DNA of 64,000 bases from Hericium rajendrae. Taxonomy: Eukaryota; Basidiomycota; Agaricomycetes; Russulales; Hericiaceae. The stretch's first letter is position 1, and the number at the start of each line of letters is the position of its first letter. The stretch lies in the NCBI GenBank assembly GCA_033439255.1, contig CM065880.1, positions 1,240,001-1,304,000 of the forward strand. The letters run 5' to 3'. Position numbers and translations under genes: made by a program. The notes under the pieces were generated by a model. The model searched no databases, was not told the DNA's origin, and saw only the letters and a list, made by a program, of their open reading frames with translations. Positions 13,307 through 39,723 of this stretch are shown one piece after another.

Positions 13307-14613
13307 ATGGAGGCTCTCTTTTTCAATGTGAGTTTCGTGAATTATCCTATAGGAGATGTGCCTTTTCTTACGCAAAAATAGGTCGATACCGGGTTTCTGG
13401 AAGGCATCGTGAGGGGCTACAAGGCTGGTATCCTGACGCAAGGAACCTATTCCAATCTTACGCAGTGCGAGAATCTCGAGGGTGCGCTCTCTGTTTCAGA
13501 GTCGCAGAAGATACAGAGTATCTGACTTGACCTTGTCTTGCTCATCCCAGACTTTCGGACGCAATTATCAACGACAGATTATGGCAATTTCCTCGCCAAC
13601 GAGACACTACCCATTTCAACATCAACCATCGCAGACAAGGCGACACAGACCCTCGTTGACCAGTTTAATTACATCCGGACCAACGCGGTGGAGCCGCTGA
13701 GCAAATTCTTGGATTATATCAGGTGCGTCGCGTTCCCATTGCATAAGTGCCGTGTTCAACGTGTACTCCGCAGTTATGGGTACATGATCGACAATGTCGT
13801 GTTGTTGATCACTGGAACGCTACACGAACGGGATACGCATGAACTTCTGGAACGCTGCCATCCATTAGGGTGGTTCGACACGATGCCTGCTCTCTGCGTT
13901 GCCACGAACGTAGAGGAACTGTACCAGACGGTATTAGTGGAAACGCCTCTTGGTCTGTCCGAAAGTCACGTCTATTGTGGTTCTTCCGCTGACGTGCCAG
14001 TATAGCACCTTACTTCCGGGACTGCCTTTCGGCGGCGGATTTGGACGACCTTAACATTGAGATCATCCGAAACACGCTGTACAAAGCCTACCTCGAAGAT
14101 TTCCATGCTTTTTGTGCTTGTATCGGTGGGCCAACGGAGGAAGTCATGACTCGCATACTGTTCTTCGAAGCAGACCGTCGCACCATCAATATCACCATCA
14201 ATTCCTTCGGCACAGAGCTCTCGAAGGAACAACGCGCGCGACTCTTCCCTACGATCGGTCGACTCTTCCCCGAAGGCAACAACCAACTCGCGAGGGCTGA
14301 TGACATCGAACAAGTACGCGCGGTTTGTGAAAGCGTATCTGAGTATCGCTCGTTCTTCGACGATTCGTCGAGCAGCGGCGGGCTGGGCACCAGCGTGGAG
14401 GGCGATATGGGCGTCGCGGCGGCACTGGAGGATAAGTTCTTCGTGGCAGAAGTGCATCTGAACAAATTGGCCTTCCTGCAGCAGTTTCAATACGGCATTT
14501 TCTATGCGTACTTCAAGTTGAAGGAGCAGGAGATCAGGAATCTGACATGGATCGCGGAATGCATTGCGCAGGATGCCAGAGACCGGATTCAGGACTACAT
14601 ACCTATTTTCTAG
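13307..14613 (+). CDS. VMA6: V-type proton ATPase subunit d (Vma6)
   Basis: Stator/central-stalk subunit that couples V1 to the Vo ring of the vacuolar proton pump. Five exons, 13307-13327, 13382-13481, 13551-13722, 13774-13952 and 14006-14613, join in frame to 359 residues, close to the roughly 345-355 usual for the family. Signature stretches: [15 protein letters not shown] at the N-terminus, [62 protein letters not shown], and the C-terminal [20 protein letters not shown]. The first exon is only 21 bp. Nothing is missing. Confidence 0.96.
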
Positions 14614-30067: not shown

Positions 30068-30556
30068 GCTACAACAGAATCCACGCGTTATTGAGATTGA
30101 ACGGACGAAAGATGGTCGGAAAGGTGCAGACCATAACGCTTGCAAATATTTAAGCGATGTGTAGAGTAGGAGCGCCCGGAGCGATTCCACGCAGAGTCCG
30201 CCTTCGAACTGGCCACTGACGTAGACATCTACCCCTCTTCTTTCAATAGCAACTTGCTAAGTGTCAGCGGGTATATTGTCGAAAGGGACAAGGACGTCGC
30301 ATCTCACCGGCTAACTGGTTAGCATAAGAAGTCCTGCAAAAGGGTAATACTCCCATGCTTTGTCAGCGCGTCTTGCTGGAAACCGCTGAGCGCTACGCGG
30401 ACACTTCCATACCCTGCCAACGTTTTCCATGTTCGACAAGATGAGTATTGTCTCCATTTGCCAAATGCTCGCGCTAGCTAACACCTTCTTACTACTACTG
30501 TATTTGTCTATTCCGCAGTAGGATTGCAATGCCATGGACGTCGAATCTATAGCGAA
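30068..30556. other. flank of the TIR element, no firm gene
   Basis: The first part should hold the promoter of the minus-strand gene ending at 30067. A minus-strand open frame of 82 codons (30559-30311) begins exactly at the insertion point of the neighbouring element. It could be the first exon of a gene cut off by the insertion, but neither composition nor splice sites prove it. Confidence 0.3.
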
Positions 30557-31743
30557 CATCTGAAAAACTTACAAGTGGTACATAGCTCTATGAAGTCTAC
30601 ATAGATTTCATAGTTCCATAGCACTGCCCTTTTCTCTGTAGCCCACATAGCCAAAGGGAGATGCTATATAGTGCTATGAAGCTTAAGGGTGATGCTATGG
30701 AGTGCTATCATAACTATGAGAGCTGGCTATGCAGCTATGATAGTATGACTAGCTATGAAAGCTATAAGGCTTATGTGTCTTACATATCCTATATTCAATA
30801 TGTGTCTTATATATCCTACATTTGATATATGTCTCACATATCCTACATTTAATATGTGTCTCATATATTCTATATTCAATATGTGTCTCACATATCTTTT
30901 ATTCAATATGTAGGTCTGCCATATATATTAAAGCAATAAAATCTATTAAATTATAAATCTTTTCTATAGTCATATCAAAATTGATAATATATAATCACAC
31001 AAATATAAACTATTTCCATGCATTAAGATTATATTGATATCATAAACACTAATACTAACTAAAAAGCGAAAATATAATTAAGAGAATATGAGATAAGTAA
31101 GAGGATATAAGATAAGATAAGTAAGATAAGATAAGATAACATTAATCTCAAAAGATAAAGATAACATATAAAAACTTACCGAAGTAACAAAAAGCGAAAT
31201 CTAAAAAACAACTTGAAGACATTAGTATAAGTATGAGCAATAAAGATATCAACAATTAGAGATTACCTTACAGCTGTAAAGACAGCAACAACGAGCAAGA
31301 GACAACAACAAACGAGCAAGAAATAAAGACGAACAAGTAAGAGACGACGATGAGCGACTAAGAAACAACGATGAGCGACTAGGAAACGACGACGAGCGAA
31401 CAAGGAACGACGACGAGCGACCCAAAGACGTCGACGAAGGCGTCGACGTGGCAAGAGACAATGGGGGTTAAAGAGCAAGAGGCAACGCGCGTCGCGCGAG
31501 CCTTATATACGAATCCCGGGCGGAGCCGGGATTCGTGGCTGCCGGGCGCTTGCCGAGCATCGCGTCAGAGACTGGGGCCAGACTTCACTAAATGGCCTTG
31601 GCTCCCTGTGAGCTTCATGCATAGTAGATACTTAAAATGCTCATTCATTCGAATCGTATTTACAATTTATAGAGCTGCTGTTTTTCTCTAAATTTATGCG
31701 ATTTTTCTTGATTTGTAGTGGTTCGAGGAACGTAGCTTCGCTC

Positions 31744-31766
31744 GTTCGGTGGCTGAAGCACCGAAC
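31744..31766 (+). ncRNA. conserved hairpin 1 in TIR element, copy A
   Basis: GTTCGGTG and CACCGAAC form an 8-bp stem around the loop GCTGAAG. Copy B keeps seven of these pairs and the same loop (37407-37427). It lies downstream of the TATA box and upstream of the splice donor, so it would sit in the leader of a plus-strand transcript. That it acts as RNA is inference. Confidence 0.45.
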
Positions 31767-31944
31767 GCGCGTCTTAGTTCGTCTTCTCCCTACTACCATC
31801 ACTCCCCTCTCTCGCCCGTCCCTCCTCTCTCTATCTCTCTTCTCGCCCCCGTCGGATCGAAGACCGGAGGAGGTTAGTAGGATGGCGAGGGCCTCAAAGG
31901 TAAGTAAAAAAAAACGTGTTTATTCGTTTATTCGTGCTAACTTA

Positions 31945-31974
31945 GAGAGTATCGCTCGCACGAGCGATACTCTC
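31945..31974 (+). ncRNA. conserved hairpin 2 in TIR element, copy A
   Basis: GAGAGTATCGCTCG pairs perfectly with CGAGCGATACTCTC (14-bp stem, two-base spacer, so the innermost pair would open in RNA). It lies about 45 bp after the GTAAGT donor. The equivalent hairpin in copy B differs at paired positions in a compensatory way. Confidence 0.5.
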
Positions 31975-31979
31975 GTACT

Positions 31980-33120
31980 TCCCCCTCGCGGGCCTCCTTT
32001 CCCTTCGCCTCCCGCCGCCGCCCCTCCCTCGTCGACTTACTCCCCGACATCGCCGCCATTCCCGCAGGAGCTGGCGCGCCGTCTCCAACGACCGCGACCG
32101 CGTGCGCTGGCGCATGCACACCACCGGATAACGCGTACGCGGGCCCGCCGCCTCGCGCACGAGCTCCGCCCCTCTCGCATGGCCTCGCCGTCCCGCGTCC
32201 CGCGTCCCGCATTGCTGCCCGGCGCGCGGGCCAGCCACCCTCTGCCCGGCCTCCTCGTCTCGCGCAGGGGCCGACACGTTGCGCGCGACCCCGCCATGGT
32301 CCGTGCGCACGGCCAGCGGGACGGGCACGTATGCGCGCACGTCGCCCGTGACCGTGTGCAAGCTTGCCGCAGCCCGACGCCTCGCACGCGCGCCCCGCAC
32401 GTCGCATCCGCACCGCCCTTCCGCGTGCGACTAGTGCGCCTCGCGCGCAGGCTTACTGCGCCGTGCACGGACCCGCGCCAGCACACCGACGTCGCCAGCC
32501 CGCCTCGCGCCTCCTGCACGCAGGACTGCTGCGTTGCGCACGGTCTCCGCGCCGCGTCCCAACCTCAACCGCTTGCGCACGGGTCCCGGGCCTCGCGCAC
32601 GCCCGCCACGTCTCGCACACGCCGCCAAGTCTCTCGCACACGTCGCCACGTCTCGCACACGCCCGCCACGTCTCGAACACGCCCGCCACGTCTCGCACAC
32701 GCCCCTCAACGCATCGGGCACGCGCCCAGCACCGGCAACATCTCGCGCAACCGCCCGCACTTCGCACACACCCACCGCGCCCCTCGCGCGTCCCTCGCGC
32801 CTCATGCACGGGCCCGCCGCCCTTATGCACATTCGCCGCGCCTCGCGCATGTGCCCGTGGCAGCGCGGCGCCTCACGCATGGGCTCTGCGCCTCGCGCGC
32901 ACACCCTACGGCCCCGCGTGAGTCCGCGACAGCCCGGCACCTCGCGCACGGGCCCCAGGCCTCCGCGTTTCCCGCGCGCAGTCTGCGCTCTTGCGCACGG
33001 GCCCCGCCAGCACGCGCACTCCCGTGCACGGTCCGGGGCTTCGAACGTGGCCATCGCGTCTTGCACGCAGCGTCGCGCACACCAGCCGCGCCCTTGTGTG
33101 CATGCACGCCTTGTCGACAC
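31980..33120 (+). repeat. degenerate GC-rich tandem array in TIR element, copy A
   Basis: About 1.1 kb of CpG-dense sequence built on variants of CGTCTCGCACACGCCCGCCA. The period is near 21 bp where clearest, around 32590-32730. It has few stop codons in several frames on both strands, which produces long but meaningless open frames (up to 481 codons from 31696). Confidence 0.65.
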
Positions 33121-33698
33121 CCCGCGAGCAGTCCTGTATAATGTAGTATACTTTAGTGTATTATTAATTGAATATAAATATATTTGACCTGATTTCGAGT
33201 ATAGCATAGCTGGAAATCGTAGACTCTACATGAACTACAGGTATTGTAGCAGTCTGAGAGTCCATAGTAACATTTGAAAGCTCTGTGTGAAACATAGTAT
33301 CTATAGAATACATAGAGGGAGACTAAAAACATATAAGTTACATAGCAGACATAGTAGTGTCCTATTACTATGTAATGCTACATACCCATCACCCATGACT
33401 ATGATAGCTATGATAGCTACCATAGTCCTGTATAGCTGTGTGGCACAACTACATAGCAGCCATAGCACTATGAAATCAGGCATAGCATTGGCTGGCAGCT
33501 ATGTAGATTTCACATTTTTCAGATGAATCGCACCACAAACCTGGATGCGATCGACACCACCCTTGAATTACATCGTTCTAACCCTATGTGCTTGCGCCCG
33601 GAACTTGACCGAGACTCTCCTTTGTTCGTTGGGATACCTTGCAGTCTGTGGATCTGATTTTCACTCTACTGTCCTCCTCTCAATCTCGCTCACAGATC

Positions 33699-34903
33699 AT
33701 GGGCAGAGCTGAAAAACACAAACTGTCCGACATTGTCCCCAGCGACAAACTCCCTAGTGCTACAGAATCGCCTCCGAAGGCTAAATCGCTGAAAACTTCT
33801 GCTACAACTTCGACAACCACAACCGAAGAAGATCACCCTGAAGAACGCGCATCAGGGTCATCCACTACCGAACTGTAAGTCTTCTCGCACGAGCGCGGCA
33901 TTTATAATTCTGATCTGTACTGTAAGAAGTACACAGCATCGCTCGCCTACACCCATTCGCGCAGACATACTGCGCGGTGATGACAACGTCAGTGTTCAGC
34001 TTGATAAAGGAGGAACAAGTGTCCCACAACTCATTGACGGCAAGAATGTGACGACAATCCACGTCGATGACCACCTCATATTATCCCTGGATTATCAGGA
34101 GACTGATGTGCTACAGTAAGCTTCTTTTTGTTCATCAATTTTCCGCCGAATTGAATTTCTGTGGTATTACAGACGTCTTAGCCACTTTCTGTCGTGGAAG
34201 ACAACGGATGGCATCACTTACTCTGTTTTGAATCTACCCACTGATATTGAATGGGCATCATCACATGTATCAGAAGAGAAGAACCTTTGCCGGCGCGGCT
34301 CGCGGAAACCTATTGTCTTTTGGATCCCCGGAACTGTCAAAACTCGCTTCTTCTTCAGTACCGATGGGCAGCCCCTTGAACGCGTGACAGTTTCCGTTGT
34401 TCCTGCCACTAAAGCCGCCTTTGACGCTGCACGCCATATCCTCATGAGATTCTCGTCGCAAACTAGTAAGTAGACTTGGCTTTCTACACAACGACACTAA
34501 TTTCTTTCTTGACCAGCATCTCCGGCTATTGCAGGCGACGCGATCAAGATATCGCGATGGCAGACAACTGCAGAACGCGGGACGCCGTGGAACGTCGTAA
34601 GTACTGTCTATGGTTTTTTCGTCATGAACTTAACACTGCCTACAGGTCAAAGAGTTTACGAATGTTTATGATGCAACGGCCTCATACTTGCCCAAGTCCA
34701 GGATGCGATGTATCAGTGCCACCTCCATTCACTTTGATGATACCGTACTCGTCGAAGCTACGGTTTCCCGGTACAGACCGAAGACTGACAAAACCACCTG
34801 GCAAGCAGCCTTCAACCTGCAGAGCATTTCTCTGCTTGCGCAGTCACCGTCTGTTAACGCGGAACCCATCGTTACCGAAGAAGGCCCTGATGTCGACATC
34901 TAA
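33699..34903 (+). CDS. unknown protein with acidic C-terminal end, dispersed family member 3
   Basis: Five exons, 33699-33874, 33927-34115, 34173-34465, 34517-34596 and 34646-34903, join in frame to 331 residues. The N-terminus MGRAEKHKLSDIVPSDKL is Ser/Thr/Lys-rich and low in complexity. Later segments: HFLSWKTTDGITYSVLNLP, RKPIVFWIPGTVKTRFFF, VSVVPATKAAFDAARHILM, PWNVVKEF, FDDTVLVEATVSRY, AAFNLQSISLL, and an acidic end EEGPDVDI. The W-x-VVK, D-x-V-x-V and F-x-x-x-I-x-L order matches the gene at 28913-30067, so I call them distant paralogues. It begins 173 bp after the right end of TIR element copy A. Function unknown. Confidence 0.65.
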
Positions 34904-35089
34904 AACCCGGAAAATATGACGTGTCCCTTGCGCTCTCACAGCTCACTTGTATACATTCTGCTTATCAGTTTCGACTTAGGTCTTGCATATTCCGGTTCTC
35001 TGATTTGCCCTAGTTAAACGCCCCATGGTCTTGCCTATACTTTTCCGTAAATTTGCCGGTCTTGCCTATTGTTCGTTCGCTCTCGCTAC

Positions 35090-35865
35090 ATGCTCAATAT
35101 ATCGACAGCGTTTGGTCTTAAAATTATTGGTCCTTTGTCTCATCCAAAGTGGGATACTTCCACCTTCCGGGACTTTAAAACCTGTCACGAAATCAGATGC
35201 TCGAGCAACGATTTCCCTCCCCCACTCATCTACCCTGCCGCTAAACTTGACAGTCCATGACAGACTACGGCACTTTTTGGAACATGCCTAGCATTTGTCT
35301 TTTCCTTCTATAACCTAGCTAAGCTAATGTTGATGCATGCGCATAGTTTCGTGACCCCATCGATGAACTACGGCGCACGCTGTGGAACGGCATTTTCATC
35401 CACCCCGATGAAAACCATGTGTTCCCCTTGTCCTCCTTGGAGGACATCCGTTATCATGTAGACAATTGCATGCTCCGCGTCACGAATGACGGACGCATCA
35501 CCCAACAAGAATTCCGCGACCTACTGCACTGCGATGAAGGCATTATTGTTGCCAACGTCTACGACCGCGATCCAGTGGAGTTCGATTGGTACTATACGCT
35601 TTATGCTGCCCCTCAAGAGCATTGCCAGCATCTCCCGGTTAACAGTGTTGCATCCATCGCTCTCAGGACAGCCGAAGAACCCATTCGCGGACCCGTTCTA
35701 GTTGTGAAGAATGGCCCAGAGTCGGGATATTGGGATATAGACGACACAGTCTGTGAGGAGAGATTTGCACGTACCCTCTGGTGGTACTTGATGAGTGGTA
35801 ACGACGTCAAGCAGGTGTTCGGCATGCGCACTCTCTGCCGCCTTCTCGCAGACGGTCCAGACTAG
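35090..35865 (+). CDS. hypothetical protein, two or more exons
   Basis: Not recognised. A first exon may start at the ATG at 35090 (LKIIGPLSHPKWDTSTFRDF) and run to about 35255. The second, clearly coding exon starts after the acceptor at 35346 (FRDPIDELRRTLWNGIFIHP) and ends at 35865, with HCDEGIIVANVYDRDPVEFD and ERFARTLWWYLMSGND. I could not find a donor that joins the two in frame, so the 5' part is uncertain and the gene may be damaged there. It is followed 107 bp later by the second F-box/nucleotidyltransferase-like gene. Confidence 0.5.
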
Positions 35866-37406
35866 TGACTTGTGTTTGTATATGTATCTACTGTCGCGAA
35901 TTGTTAGCTTACACGCCAGTTCAACCATCATCTTATCGTCCACGTTCATCCGCGGGAATTATGCTGTAAACATGGTGATCCCTGACATAGCCTTCTCCCT
36001 TGAAATCTGGCTACGCATCCTCCGCTACAGCGACATAGGCAGTGTCATCGCCCTCGCAGGAACTTCCCGCAAGTTGCGAGCCATCACTTCCACGACAACA
36101 CGCCGGGCTATCCAACACGACCTGTCATACTTCATCGAGCCTATGGCTGAATTACAGACTATAATGTCCAGGCTAGACATTGTACTCATCGGCTCTTTCG
36201 TGCTCGGCGTTCTCTTGAATCCTTTCCGAACCTGGGACGCCGACAATCTGGATTTCCTTTGCAGTTCTAGCACAGCGTTCCAAGCCCTTCCATCAGAAAA
36301 ATGTGTAAGTGGTACATAGCTCTATGAAGTCTACATAGATCTCCTAGCTCCATAGCACTGCCCTTTTCTCTATAGTCAGCATAGCCAAAGGGAGGTGCTA
36401 TGTAGTGCTATAGAGCTGAAGGGCAATGCTATGAAGTACTATCATAGCTATCATAGCTGACTATGCAGCTACCATAGTATGCCCAGCTATCAAGACTATC
36501 AGAACTATACCATTGACATATGCTATATTCAATAGATAGACTTGGTACATCTATCCAAGATCCAAAAGCTATTAGCACTATACAAATTGCTATTGGATTA
36601 TAAAGCCTAGTTAGCTTATGAAGTAAACTTTTTAAGATCTATACATTTTATCACAAAATAGATATAAATTTTATTTATTGTCTCAACAAGTTTGCATTGC
36701 AATGATTAATCAATTAATACTATACTATATTAACTACTATATAATAATATATAGATATTATATAATATTTACAAAGATAACTTACAAAAGAAAAATGACA
36801 AATATATAATCAGAGTCTATCGAAAACAAAATCAAGACCTAATTTAAAAGCATTAGAGAACATTATCAAATAGCTTACAATCATCGAGATAACAGAACTA
36901 TAACGAGAAAAAGCGAAAATATAATCTAAAAAGCTAAGAACATTAAGTATTAATCAACAAAGATAGAAAAGAATTGACTTACAGAATGCTAAAAGACATG
37001 AAATAAAAACAACGAAGGAGACATAAGAAACAACGAGCAAGAAGCGAAAAACAACGAGCGAGACACAAGAAACAACGAGCGAGAGATGAAAGACGAGAAA
37101 CGAGAGATGATGGGGGTTGGAGAGAGAGAGTGAACGCGCGTCGTGCGAGGGTTATATAGGTGAGCGCGGGTTTGCCCGGCGGAGCCCTAAATGTGGCTGC
37201 CGGGACCCGGCCCGGGCACCGTGTCAGACGCCAAGTCCCAGATCTCATTAATTTCGTTCCGCTTTCCAGTAGCTTATAGTACATAAGTTAGAGATGTAGC
37301 CCATTCTATCGAATTATATTTGCAAGCGCTATATACTCTCGTTTTTCCTGAATTTGTGCGATTTTATTTGCTTTGCTAAGTTCGAAAACATTCGAACGCG
37401 CGGCCG

Positions 37407-37427
37407 TTCGGTGGCTGAAGCACCGAA
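37407..37427 (+). ncRNA. conserved hairpin 1 in TIR element, copy B
   Basis: TTCGGTG and CACCGAA pair around the loop GCTGAAG, identical in stem and loop to the core of the copy A hairpin, although the flanking sequence has diverged. Confidence 0.45.
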
Positions 37428-37595
37428 GTCGCATCGTTCGACTTGACTCCACTACCATTCACTACTTCCTCTCGCGTCTTATTCCTCTCTTCCCTCGTCG
37501 CTCCTCAAGTCGAAGGTCGGAGGGGCTTGGTAGCAGCTGGAAGGGGCACAAGGTAAGTAAATAAAGTCTCCTATCCTTGAAGTCGTGCTAATCTC

Positions 37596-37627
37596 GAGGG
37601 TACCGCTCGTTATCGAGCGGTACTCTC
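37596..37627 (+). ncRNA. conserved hairpin 2 in TIR element, copy B
   Basis: GAGGGTACCGCTCG pairs with CGAGCGGTACTCTC around the loop TTAT. Relative to copy A, one T-A pair has become C-G with both sides changed, and one A-T pair has become a G-T wobble. The stem length of 14 is preserved. Confidence 0.5.
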
Positions 37628-37639
37628 GTTTCTTTCACT

Positions 37640-38760
37640 ACTCCCCGCGACACCCCATCATCTTCGACACCCCGCCATCTTCGACACCCCGCCGCTCCTC
37701 TCGCGCACGTACGCACCTCTTTCCATCACCCGCACCTTCGACAACGCCCGCCCCCGCGTACGACTGCGTGTGTCCACGCATCACCCCGTGCAGAGGCTCT
37801 GCTCTGCCCCTGCGGGCCTCCCACAGCCCGCGCCCCCTCGCGCGCCGACCACCAATGGCCCCGTCAACGCCCGACCACGGCTCCACCAGCCCCCGCCTGT
37901 CCGCGCACACGGCCGCGCACGACAGCGCCAGCACATGGCCATGCCCGCCTGTGCCAGCGGACGGCGTGGCACGGTCGCGCCAGCATACGCAAACCAGGCG
38001 TGCCCACGCCGATCCACGGCGCCGCCTGCGCCCGCATGTCCACGCATACGCACGCACGGTCGCGCACGGCAGCGCCAGTGCACGAGCGCGCACGCCTGCG
38101 CCAGCGCATGGACCCGTGCGCACGGCCCCATCAACACCGGCCTCTTGCACACGCAAGCCCACACACTCGCGTCCCCGCACGACAGCGCCAGGGCCACGAC
38201 GCGCACGTTATGCAGAGCCCCACTCCGCCCCGCACGGATCCAGCGAGCTACCCACGGCCGCAGCCCGCGCACGAGCCAAGCAGGTCGCGTGCGATCCGCA
38301 TGCCTCGCGCACGACCCCAACAGCGCATGCACGCCTGCCAGCGCACACCTCCGACTGCTCCGCACCTGTTCACCCCTTGACTACGTGCGCACGGCCACAT
38401 ATGCATGGACAGACAGCAGGCCTGCGTCTGTTCCCGTCAGCTCGTGCCTGCCTGTGCACGCTTTTGCCTGCGTCGGACTGGGTGCGCACGCTCGCGCATG
38501 CCGCAAGCGACGCGTAGTTGCGTTGTTCCCCCCACCTGCGCACGATCTCCATGCCGTGGCAACGGCGCACCCCTGCGATGTCACCGTCGCCGCGCCGCCT
38601 TTCTCGCGTTCGTGCACCCTGCGCGCCGTCTCTCCCGGGACTCACGCCCCGCACTAGTGTGTCCAAGGCGAACACGTGTGACGTGTCCGGCGCCGTTTCG
38701 GTTTGCGCGTGCCGGGCTCTCAGTCTCGCGCACAGCTCACGCGCGTGTCGCCGACAGCGT
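37640..38760 (+). repeat. degenerate GC-rich array in TIR element, copy B
   Basis: The counterpart of the array in copy A, built on variants of GCGCACG and GCCAGCGCA units with no crisp period. Long frames in several registers on both strands reflect stop-poor composition, not genes. Confidence 0.6.
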
Positions 38761-39723
38761 GCGTGCGACCATCAAATGCATGCTAGTGCCATGTACTTCG
38801 TATACTATACATTGTAGTACTTGGATCTCATGTAATACCTTATTTCTGTAATATAATGACTCTATAAGAACCACAGATTGTATAGCAACCTGAGACTCCA
38901 TAGCAGCCTTATGAAGCTGTATATTGAACATAACATCTATAGCATACATAGAGTCAAACTAAAACCATATAGGTTACATAGCAGACATAGTAGTGTGTTG
39001 TTGCTATGTAGTGCTACATAGCTATCACTCATGGCTATGATAGCTATGATAGCTCTCATAGTTCTATATAGTTGCATAGCTCAAGTACATAGCAGCCATA
39101 GCACTATGAAAGCCAGCATAGCATTGGCTGGTAGCTATGTAGAATTCACATTTTTGAGATGTCACGATTTGATCACAATTGAGGACGACTACGTTTTCGA
39201 CAGACTCACCTCTGGCATGCAAACTGAAACTTTTCATAACCACTCTATACAACGTCTGCGCGTCTACCGCGTCAAGAAACACGGCAAATCTCTCCACATC
39301 AACATCATGCTCACCAAACAAGCCTATACCGGCGTACGCTCTGTGCCTCGTACCTGGTCTTCCCTTTTATGCAACTACATGACCGCGAACGAGCTCGTCT
39401 GCGCGTTTCCACAGTGGACCCTTCGCAATACCGGCATCCTCTTCGACAAAGTCTTCTCCACTGTCGACACACCTCATGCTCACAGGCGCAACCATGCTGT
39501 ATGGCACAGATATCTCGACAGATCTTTCAGCCTCGTAGCGCCCTAGATCAATGCACGCTCACATCCTATCATCGATATCACGCGCGATGGCTACCGAATT
39601 CCGCAGAAACGCCAATTCGTCGACAACATATCGTTGAGGATGCGATGGGACAACACAGATTTTGGGTACAGCGAACACGGACTGGACGAAAGTTTCCTTT
39701 GGTTATCTGGAAATTTTGATTGA

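Follow-up and report, generated by a model that had tools for sequence, protein, structure and literature searches.

According to the account of fission yeast telomerase RNA in PMC4299874, a strong branch site and a long distance from the branch site to the 3′ splice site favour release of TER1 after the first step of splicing, and further RNAs made by spliceosomal cleavage are there called hard to find since the blocking signals differ. Stems located downstream in yeast introns, as presented in PMC12350175, hide cryptic 3′ splice sites. In Cryptococcus, transposon transcripts with poorly splicing introns are described in connection with SCANR, spliceosome-coupled RNA interference (RNAi) (PMC5851062). 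Among transposons, PlavakaB is given termini CATCA..TGATG and target duplications of 2 or 3 bp (PMC12730594). The subject of this report is a transposon of the basidiomycete Hericium rajendrae, of which two copies, A and B, lie in a stretch of 64,000 nt (assembly GCA_033439255.1, contig CM065880.1, positions 1,240,001 to 1,304,000 of the forward strand), called the window below and numbered from its first letter. Both copies carry a 14-bp hairpin, hairpin 2, that shows compensatory base changes, begins 3 nt behind a branch-site motif and is followed by a tract poor in AG. The favoured reading, to which a probability of about one half is given, is that hairpin 2 would lie in an intron and, behind a strong 5′ splice site and branch site, withhold the 3′ splice site nearby.

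Covariation of hairpin 2

Hairpin 2 of copy A (31945-31974; this and all window features below are on the plus strand) has arms at 31945-31958 and 31961-31974, a loop CA and Watson-Crick pairs at 14 of 14 positions, and that of copy B (37596-37627) has arms at 37596-37609 and 37614-37627, a loop TTAT and 14 pairs including one G.U. Relative to A, copy B shows a double change of one U-A pair to C-G and a G.U wobble, just as a preliminary description made from the letters of the window had stated for a 14-bp stem in these places. RNA folding gives hairpin 2 z-scores of -5.77 (A) and -6.57 (B). With up to two mismatches, the arm of A is matched five times in the window versus a mean of 0.49 in shuffled sequence (none of 100 shuffles reached five); four of these matches are the arms of A and B, and for the fifth, at 14339, the stretch read contains no second arm.

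The family extends well beyond the window. In the genome searched (46.77 Mb, 19 contigs) the 14-bp stem in perfect form, with a loop of any length from 0 to 16 nt, occurs at 98 places versus none for the reversed control, with loops of 2-8 nt among the matches listed. An arm pattern with two variable sites finds 192+188 matches versus 2+1 for its reversed control. Among 100 arm matches listed, 31 adjacent arm pairs were counted by us, 28 having the U-A state and 3 the C-G state on both sides, with no mixed pair; for the other 38 matches the partner departs from the pattern. The transposon family with this module comprises over a hundred copies, most of which were found via one exact arm or in loci fetched for one, a bias against doubly changed stems.

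That the stem is conserved with compensatory change, which could previously be argued from two copies, can now be examined over many more. In 22 sequences (alignment A1, from which loci L027, L033, L036 and L043 are omitted as near-duplicates) two-sided changes with pairing kept occur at 7 of 14 pairs, 98.4% of cells pair, and four of five covariation measures, those for pairs and cells included, were reached by none of 500 shuffles. When decayed copies are included, giving 35 sequences, again 7 of 14 pairs show two-sided changes (reached by 1 of 500 shuffles) in 14 such cells (0 of 500) and 97.1% are paired, versus 2-3 two-sided pairs and 25-54% pairing in slid controls. RNAalifold recovers the same stem. 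(Alignment A2 omits L027, L033 and L036; alignment A3 omits L045, which is the same place as L026, as well as L027, L033, L036, L043 and L049, and includes L050 with the first three stem letters cut off.) Genome counts, scored by whether a variant is matched on both strands or not, point the same way: full compensation is seen at 7 of 7 places for pair 62-83, at 16 of 26 for pair 65-80 and at 1 of 6 for the CCTG variant. Read from these alignments, the covariation is real for subfamilies, and dead copies drift.

The apparent intron front half and the AG-poor tract

Upstream of hairpin 2 both copies have the layout of a promoter, a leader and the front half of an intron. A TATA-like box lies at 31503-31509 in copy A and at 37152-37158 in copy B, 397 and 401 nt before a putative 5′ splice site GTAAGT at 31900-31905 and 37553-37558, respectively, and a branch-site motif follows at 31937-31941 (CTAAC, copy A) and 37588-37592 (CTAAT, copy B). 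The preliminary description had placed the stem just after the splice donor; the donor is indeed upstream, but the hairpin begins at a distance of 45 nt in A and 43 nt in B from the donor G, and 3 nt behind the branch-site motif. This spacing is tight. The distance from GTRAGT or GTRAGC to the start of the stem was measured in 23 copies and is 41-48 nt in every one, and 18 of the 22 A1 rows have a CTRAY that ends 3 nt before the stem. Genome-wide, CTAATNNN plus arm (CTAAT) occurs 94 times and CTAACNNN plus arm (CTAAC) 39 times, so that 133 arms have a CTAAY with a gap of exactly 3 nt, a configuration found 0 times in the controls.

At least two element classes share the module. In class I, which includes A and B, the promoter-donor layout that had been noticed in the two copies recurs, 17 of 18 copies having a TATA-like box at 390-421 nt upstream of the donor. 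Class I leaders also contain a second hairpin, the leader hairpin or hairpin 1, at 31745-31765 in A and, identical as previously reported, at 37407-37427 in B. Its core CGGTGGCTGAAGCACCG has 171+155 genome matches at up to two mismatches versus 4+8 for the control, and it folds in the RNA folding test. However, among 17 aligned copies none of its 8 pairs shows a two-sided change, and its pairing (89.2%) equals that of shuffles (89.3%). The leader hairpin is therefore treated as a conserved sequence that lacks covariation support, its structure being unproven, and the earlier proposal of a conserved structure was dropped. Class II, a label that rests on four loci (L031, L035, L039, L042), has a leader unrelated to that of class I, in which the leader hairpin is lacking in all four cases compared, followed by the same donor-branch-hairpin module. 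L035 and L042, and L031 in decayed form, also have a divergent side, where the other strand carries a donor, CTRAY and hairpin of its own, so that three of the four class II loci have the module on both strands. Two further loci, C9:1191967/1192473 and C9:1238474/1238980, show divergent CTAAT-hairpin pairs with a separation of 506 bp, like those of class II and with the main stem sequence. Class II loci furthermore share around GTTTTGCTGCAGCAAAAC a nearly perfect palindrome, about 38 bp long (L031:2681-2717, L035:5298-5335, L039:5485-5522, L042:5994-6032) and shorter palindromes near the promoter.

Where would a 3′ splice site be expected? In 41 other candidate introns with donor and CTRAY, YAG peaks at 13-23 nt from the branch A, where it fills 29 of 451 position-cells (about 6%, versus a background of about 3%), and occurs once in 164 cells at 7-10 nt. 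In the element the 13-23 nt zone falls inside hairpin 2. Behind the hairpin follows a C-rich tract, at 31975-32065 in copy A with the first AG at 32066 and at 37628-37791 in copy B with the first AG at 37792; that such a tract is free of AG up to its first AG is true by construction and carries no evidence. Earlier AGs are found only at the foot of the stem, at 5-9 nt from the branch A.

Evidence for AG depletion comes from fixed distances. In the first 60 nt behind the stem 26 copies contain 3 AG versus 24.1 in shuffles, none of 5000 shuffles being as low, versus 41 GA (24.1 expected) and 182 CT, that is, AG on the antisense strand (193.4 expected). In 17 tails unlike each other, 1 AG is found versus 19.1 expected, and in six class II tails 0 AG versus 9.2, 9 GA versus 9.4 and 31 CT versus 37.8. 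The effect fades over about 450 nt, with AG/GA observed-to-expected ratios of 0.14/1.50, 0.60/1.06, 0.52/0.91, 0.63/0.81, 0.55/0.71 and 0.86/0.90. In 22 copies the median distance from the hairpin is 102 nt to the first AG and 20 nt to the first GA, and the first AG lies 44-255 nt behind the hairpin, an AG at +5 in L028 being skipped. This pattern, found mainly on the sense strand, is read here as the probable result of selection that removes acceptors close to a branch site. It suggests spliceosomal reading of the sense strand and offers the best indirect pointer to transcription of the element.

Proposed splicing control and its rivals

How could these parts act together? The element promoter would make a transcript that begins with a leader of about 370 nt devoid of a conserved reading frame and continues into the front half of a spliceosomal intron, consisting of GTRAGT, about 36 nt and CTAAY, with the 14-bp RNA hairpin beginning 3 nt later. 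The hairpin would occupy the stretch where introns of this genome usually have their YAG and tie up its own AGs in pairs, and the tract behind it would have been purged of AG by selection; position, paired AGs and purged tract together argue that hairpin 2 acts in the transcript. The first intron would thus have a good donor and branch site and no accessible acceptor nearby, as hairpin and AG-poor tract withhold it. Three outcomes can be imagined: distal splicing, with an AG 44-255 nt beyond the hairpin as acceptor, which would be the ordinary one; cleavage by the first step only, as in fission yeast TER1, which would release the leader RNA of about 370 nt; or a stalled spliceosome that feeds RNAi, as is reported for Cryptococcus transposon transcripts. 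A stricter version is that the element carries a half-intron, whose 3′ splice site is locked by the covarying hairpin and the AG-poor tract so that the spliceosome performs only the first step or stalls, yielding a discrete noncoding RNA of about 370 nt that ends at the donor or opening a route to silencing or decay that the element exploits; this version is put forward tentatively and is rather doubtful. In more general terms, the module may make the element transcript resist normal splicing. The preliminary description had proposed a structured, possibly spliced noncoding RNA. This proposal is supported in part, by the conserved stem with compensatory changes and by the recurring promoter-donor layout; the likely role moves to splicing control because of the branch-site motif, the want of a usable close 3′ splice site and the AG-poor tract, none of which that description had mentioned.

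Several observations weigh against this reading. Concerning the stem, the count of further standard pair types is not raised above that of shuffles, being reached by 50 of 500 in the 22 sequences and by 299 of 500 in the 35, and effective sample sizes are below the counts throughout, since the copies are related. When the collected copies were checked for unpaired stem substitutions, such changes were found: at least one non-Watson-Crick pair is present in 18 of 39 sense-oriented hairpins read (17 listed and L049, with a wobble at the stem foot; L045 was set aside as the same place as L026), which seems to reflect dead copies decaying. G.U pairs and A/C mismatches are about equally frequent on the sense strand (8 versus 7 at inner pairs), so the tolerance specific to RNA is not seen, and one-sided mismatches are common to several copies, for example L026, L048 and L050, which argues that pairing is not strictly required for spread. 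Concerning the acceptor, the 41 comparison introns are candidates by motif in the same DNA, with totals summed by us, and their YAG at 3-6 nt (7 in 164 cells) is at about the background of 3%; the stem-foot AGs at 5-9 nt from the branch A might be used. AG is not the only scarce pair, as GG is also rare near the stem (9 versus 26), and CT is slightly low in the 17 unlike tails (101 versus 118; 37 of 5000 shuffles as low). Finally, in the 100 nt behind the first AG of 22 copies, AG stays scarce (42 versus 81 expected; GA 81 versus 81), so that no acceptor is clearly marked.

This last observation also weighs against the strongest rival, an ordinary intron with the same anatomy and a distant acceptor, in which the hairpin would hide AGs near the branch site and shorten the path to a normal YAG 44-255 nt beyond it. 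Such an arrangement is less probable than the favoured reading. In 16 of 22 copies the letter before the first AG that follows the hairpin is C or T, ACGTCGCYAG or ACGTCACCAG stands at the first AG in 7 of 20 class I copies and, with one change, also in L024, L028 has a TAG 5 nt behind the hairpin, and the downstream stems described for yeast introns offer a precedent (PMC12350175). Yet an acceptor of this kind would be about 80-295 nt from the branch site (about 43 in L028), beyond the commonest 13-23 nt, AG stays scarce past the first AG too, and in 20 of 22 copies there is no second CTRAY 15-40 nt before the first AG. Moreover, the hairpin starts inside the 21 nt behind the branch site that, in the description of the yeast spliceosome in PMC12350175, thread through it.

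A different kind of rival places the function on DNA; the stem sequence by itself does not separate RNA pairing from DNA pairing. On this reading hairpin 2 would be a palindromic binding or cruciform site for transposase or a host protein, kept by selection on DNA or by template-switch correction that mimics compensatory change. Perfect palindromes yield the same covariation on DNA, the equal frequency of G.U and A/C fits, and class II carries another conserved palindrome with no obvious role in a transcript. RNA is nevertheless favoured over DNA because the loop varies between fixed arms (2-8 nt, plus one of 12), which a rigid dimer site would not allow and which disfavours such a site, and because of the AG pattern behind the stem. 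Neither a palindrome nor template-switch correction explains the fixed place behind the branch-site motif, a palindrome leaves the much stronger AG avoidance on one strand unexplained, and the one-sided changes inherited by several copies indicate that correction, if it takes place, is inefficient. On balance a DNA palindrome is unlikely.

Several known systems can be compared with the reading that hairpin 2 withholds an acceptor. As in the description of TER1 (PMC4299874), the element has a canonical 5′ splice site and a good branch site, no usable close 3′ splice site, and a noncoding 5′ exon before them; CTRAY is found in 18 of 22 copies with the next AG 44-255 nt behind the hairpin, a correspondence that holds only if the stem-foot AGs are unused. 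In contrast to what is reported of TER1 (PMC4299874), the block in the element, if any, would be set by a stem at the branch site and by AG avoidance. The longest T run in the last 40 nt before the donor is 2 in 17 of 17 leaders, so an Sm-like T run is lacking there and a close copy of TER1 is disfavoured; the candidate leader RNA is equated with no known RNA. With the yeast stems of the RPS23B type, as portrayed in PMC12350175, hairpin 2 shares its location between branch site and putative 3′ splice site and the apparent hiding of AGs. It differs from them, to judge by that account, in being only 3 nt behind the branch motif, 14 bp long and nearly invariant in about a hundred copies, and in that the next AG stays far in most copies even when the stem is looped out (PMC12350175). 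With SCANR the element has in common, by analogy only, transposon transcripts with introns that would splice poorly (PMC5851062). A search of one open-access library by titles and the starts of abstracts gave nothing on such a hairpin or half-intron module; the kind of transposon is known, and the hairpin-plus-AG-poor half-intron looks like a new variation. The module is a concrete and cheap candidate for an RNA made by spliceosomal cleavage, and it could tie DNA transposons to spliceosome-linked silencing of the kind outlined for Cryptococcus (PMC5851062).

Transposon copies and the possible Plavaka link

The preliminary description had recognised two copies of a 2.9-kb element with terminal inverted repeats. 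The two copies stand; their bounds had to be corrected by comparison with 20 other genome loci of 9-9.5 kb each. Copy A, of 2,969 bp, extends from 30557 to 33525 with ends CATCTG..CAGATG and a 2-bp target duplication AA on both sides, and copy B, of 2,871 bp, from 36291 to 39161 with ends CATCAG..GAGATG and the target duplication TC on both sides. Direct repeats of 244 and 300 nt flank the stems and are 82% alike between A and B in each case. Of 12 copies with both ends recognised, nine have identical 2-bp target duplications (A AA, B TC, L027 TA, L029 TA, L030 TC, L033 AT, L036 CA, L039 TC, L043 TC) and three, L024, L028 and L035, have none that match. Exact termini CATCAG..CTGATG are found in L024, L027, L033 and L036, and the variant CATCTG..CAGATG of copy A also in L029, L030 and L043.

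These features resemble what is described of PlavakaB (PMC12730594): the termini begin with CATC, target duplications are of 2 bp, and Plavaka transposases are plentiful in the same genome, with 132 domain matches. Points of difference are that A and B lack an internal transposase, that the termini of copy A read CATCTG..CAGATG rather than CATCA..TGATG, and that the noncoding transcription unit, hairpin 2 and AG-poor tract have no counterpart in the PlavakaB description as far as PMC12730594 presents it. Since none of the 132 Plavaka matches lies inside the window, A and B are best taken as non-autonomous DNA transposons of a type close to PlavakaB, and at most as its non-autonomous relatives.

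A further explanation is that leader, donor and hairpin are simply a relic of the 5′ end of a transposase gene, inherited from the transposase transcript of an autonomous element; it overlaps the others and is improbable. Besides the abundance of Plavaka domains it can invoke three hairpins (C4:1921196, C7:2334492, C12:983468) of 114 that have a Plavaka match on their own strand 5.6-7.7 kb upstream and possibly mark large autonomous elements that bear the module. The matches listed also include a less perfect arm of the hairpin (C3), 6.1 kb from a Plavaka match, and three places of the leader hairpin at distances of 5.2-7.4 kb. However, 111 of the 114 hairpins are more than 8 kb from all Plavaka loci used, in a count that covers 114 of 133 hairpins, those on contigs C1-C14, and 73 of 132 Plavaka matches, the dropped ones being mostly exon pieces, and no listed hairpin is less than 5 kb from the middle of any Plavaka match used. 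The window is free of Plavaka matches, none was obtained either with ten open reading frames taken in 9 of the 20 long loci, and the module is kept by two classes with different leaders. A small-RNA precursor like that of a microRNA, suggested by a stable stem-loop in a likely transcript, is highly improbable, as 14 pairs with a short loop offer little for Dicer and an Rfam search of 30200-39400 at E up to 1 gave three matches, all below gathering score and none on hairpin 2.

Some further features of the two copies may be added. When the flanks of copy B are joined, the open frame of some 290 codons that it interrupts becomes whole again, and the first part of this frame has a sub-threshold F-box match (E 0.0016); copy B thus disrupts a gene whose frame is intact in the empty site. 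That B could be a harmless intron, with end signals GTAAGT and TTTTTSAG, was rejected because excision would by our reckoning add 19 nt and shift the frame. C-rich arrays lie behind the hairpin at 32000-33100 and 37640-38790, with a G+C content of about 0.7-0.76 and a loose period of 20 bp. Long open frames occur there in several frames and on either strand, which GC-rich DNA poor in stops would be expected to show, and a coding role was discarded. The class I arrays share a piece that reads SWRAVSNDRDRVRW in one frame in A, as judged by eye, and is perhaps a captured fragment of an F-box-like gene. Upstream of the TATA-like box, both copies contain purine-rich repeats with a spacing of 21 bp around AACGACGAGCGA, at 31284-31431 in A and 37005-37110 in B.

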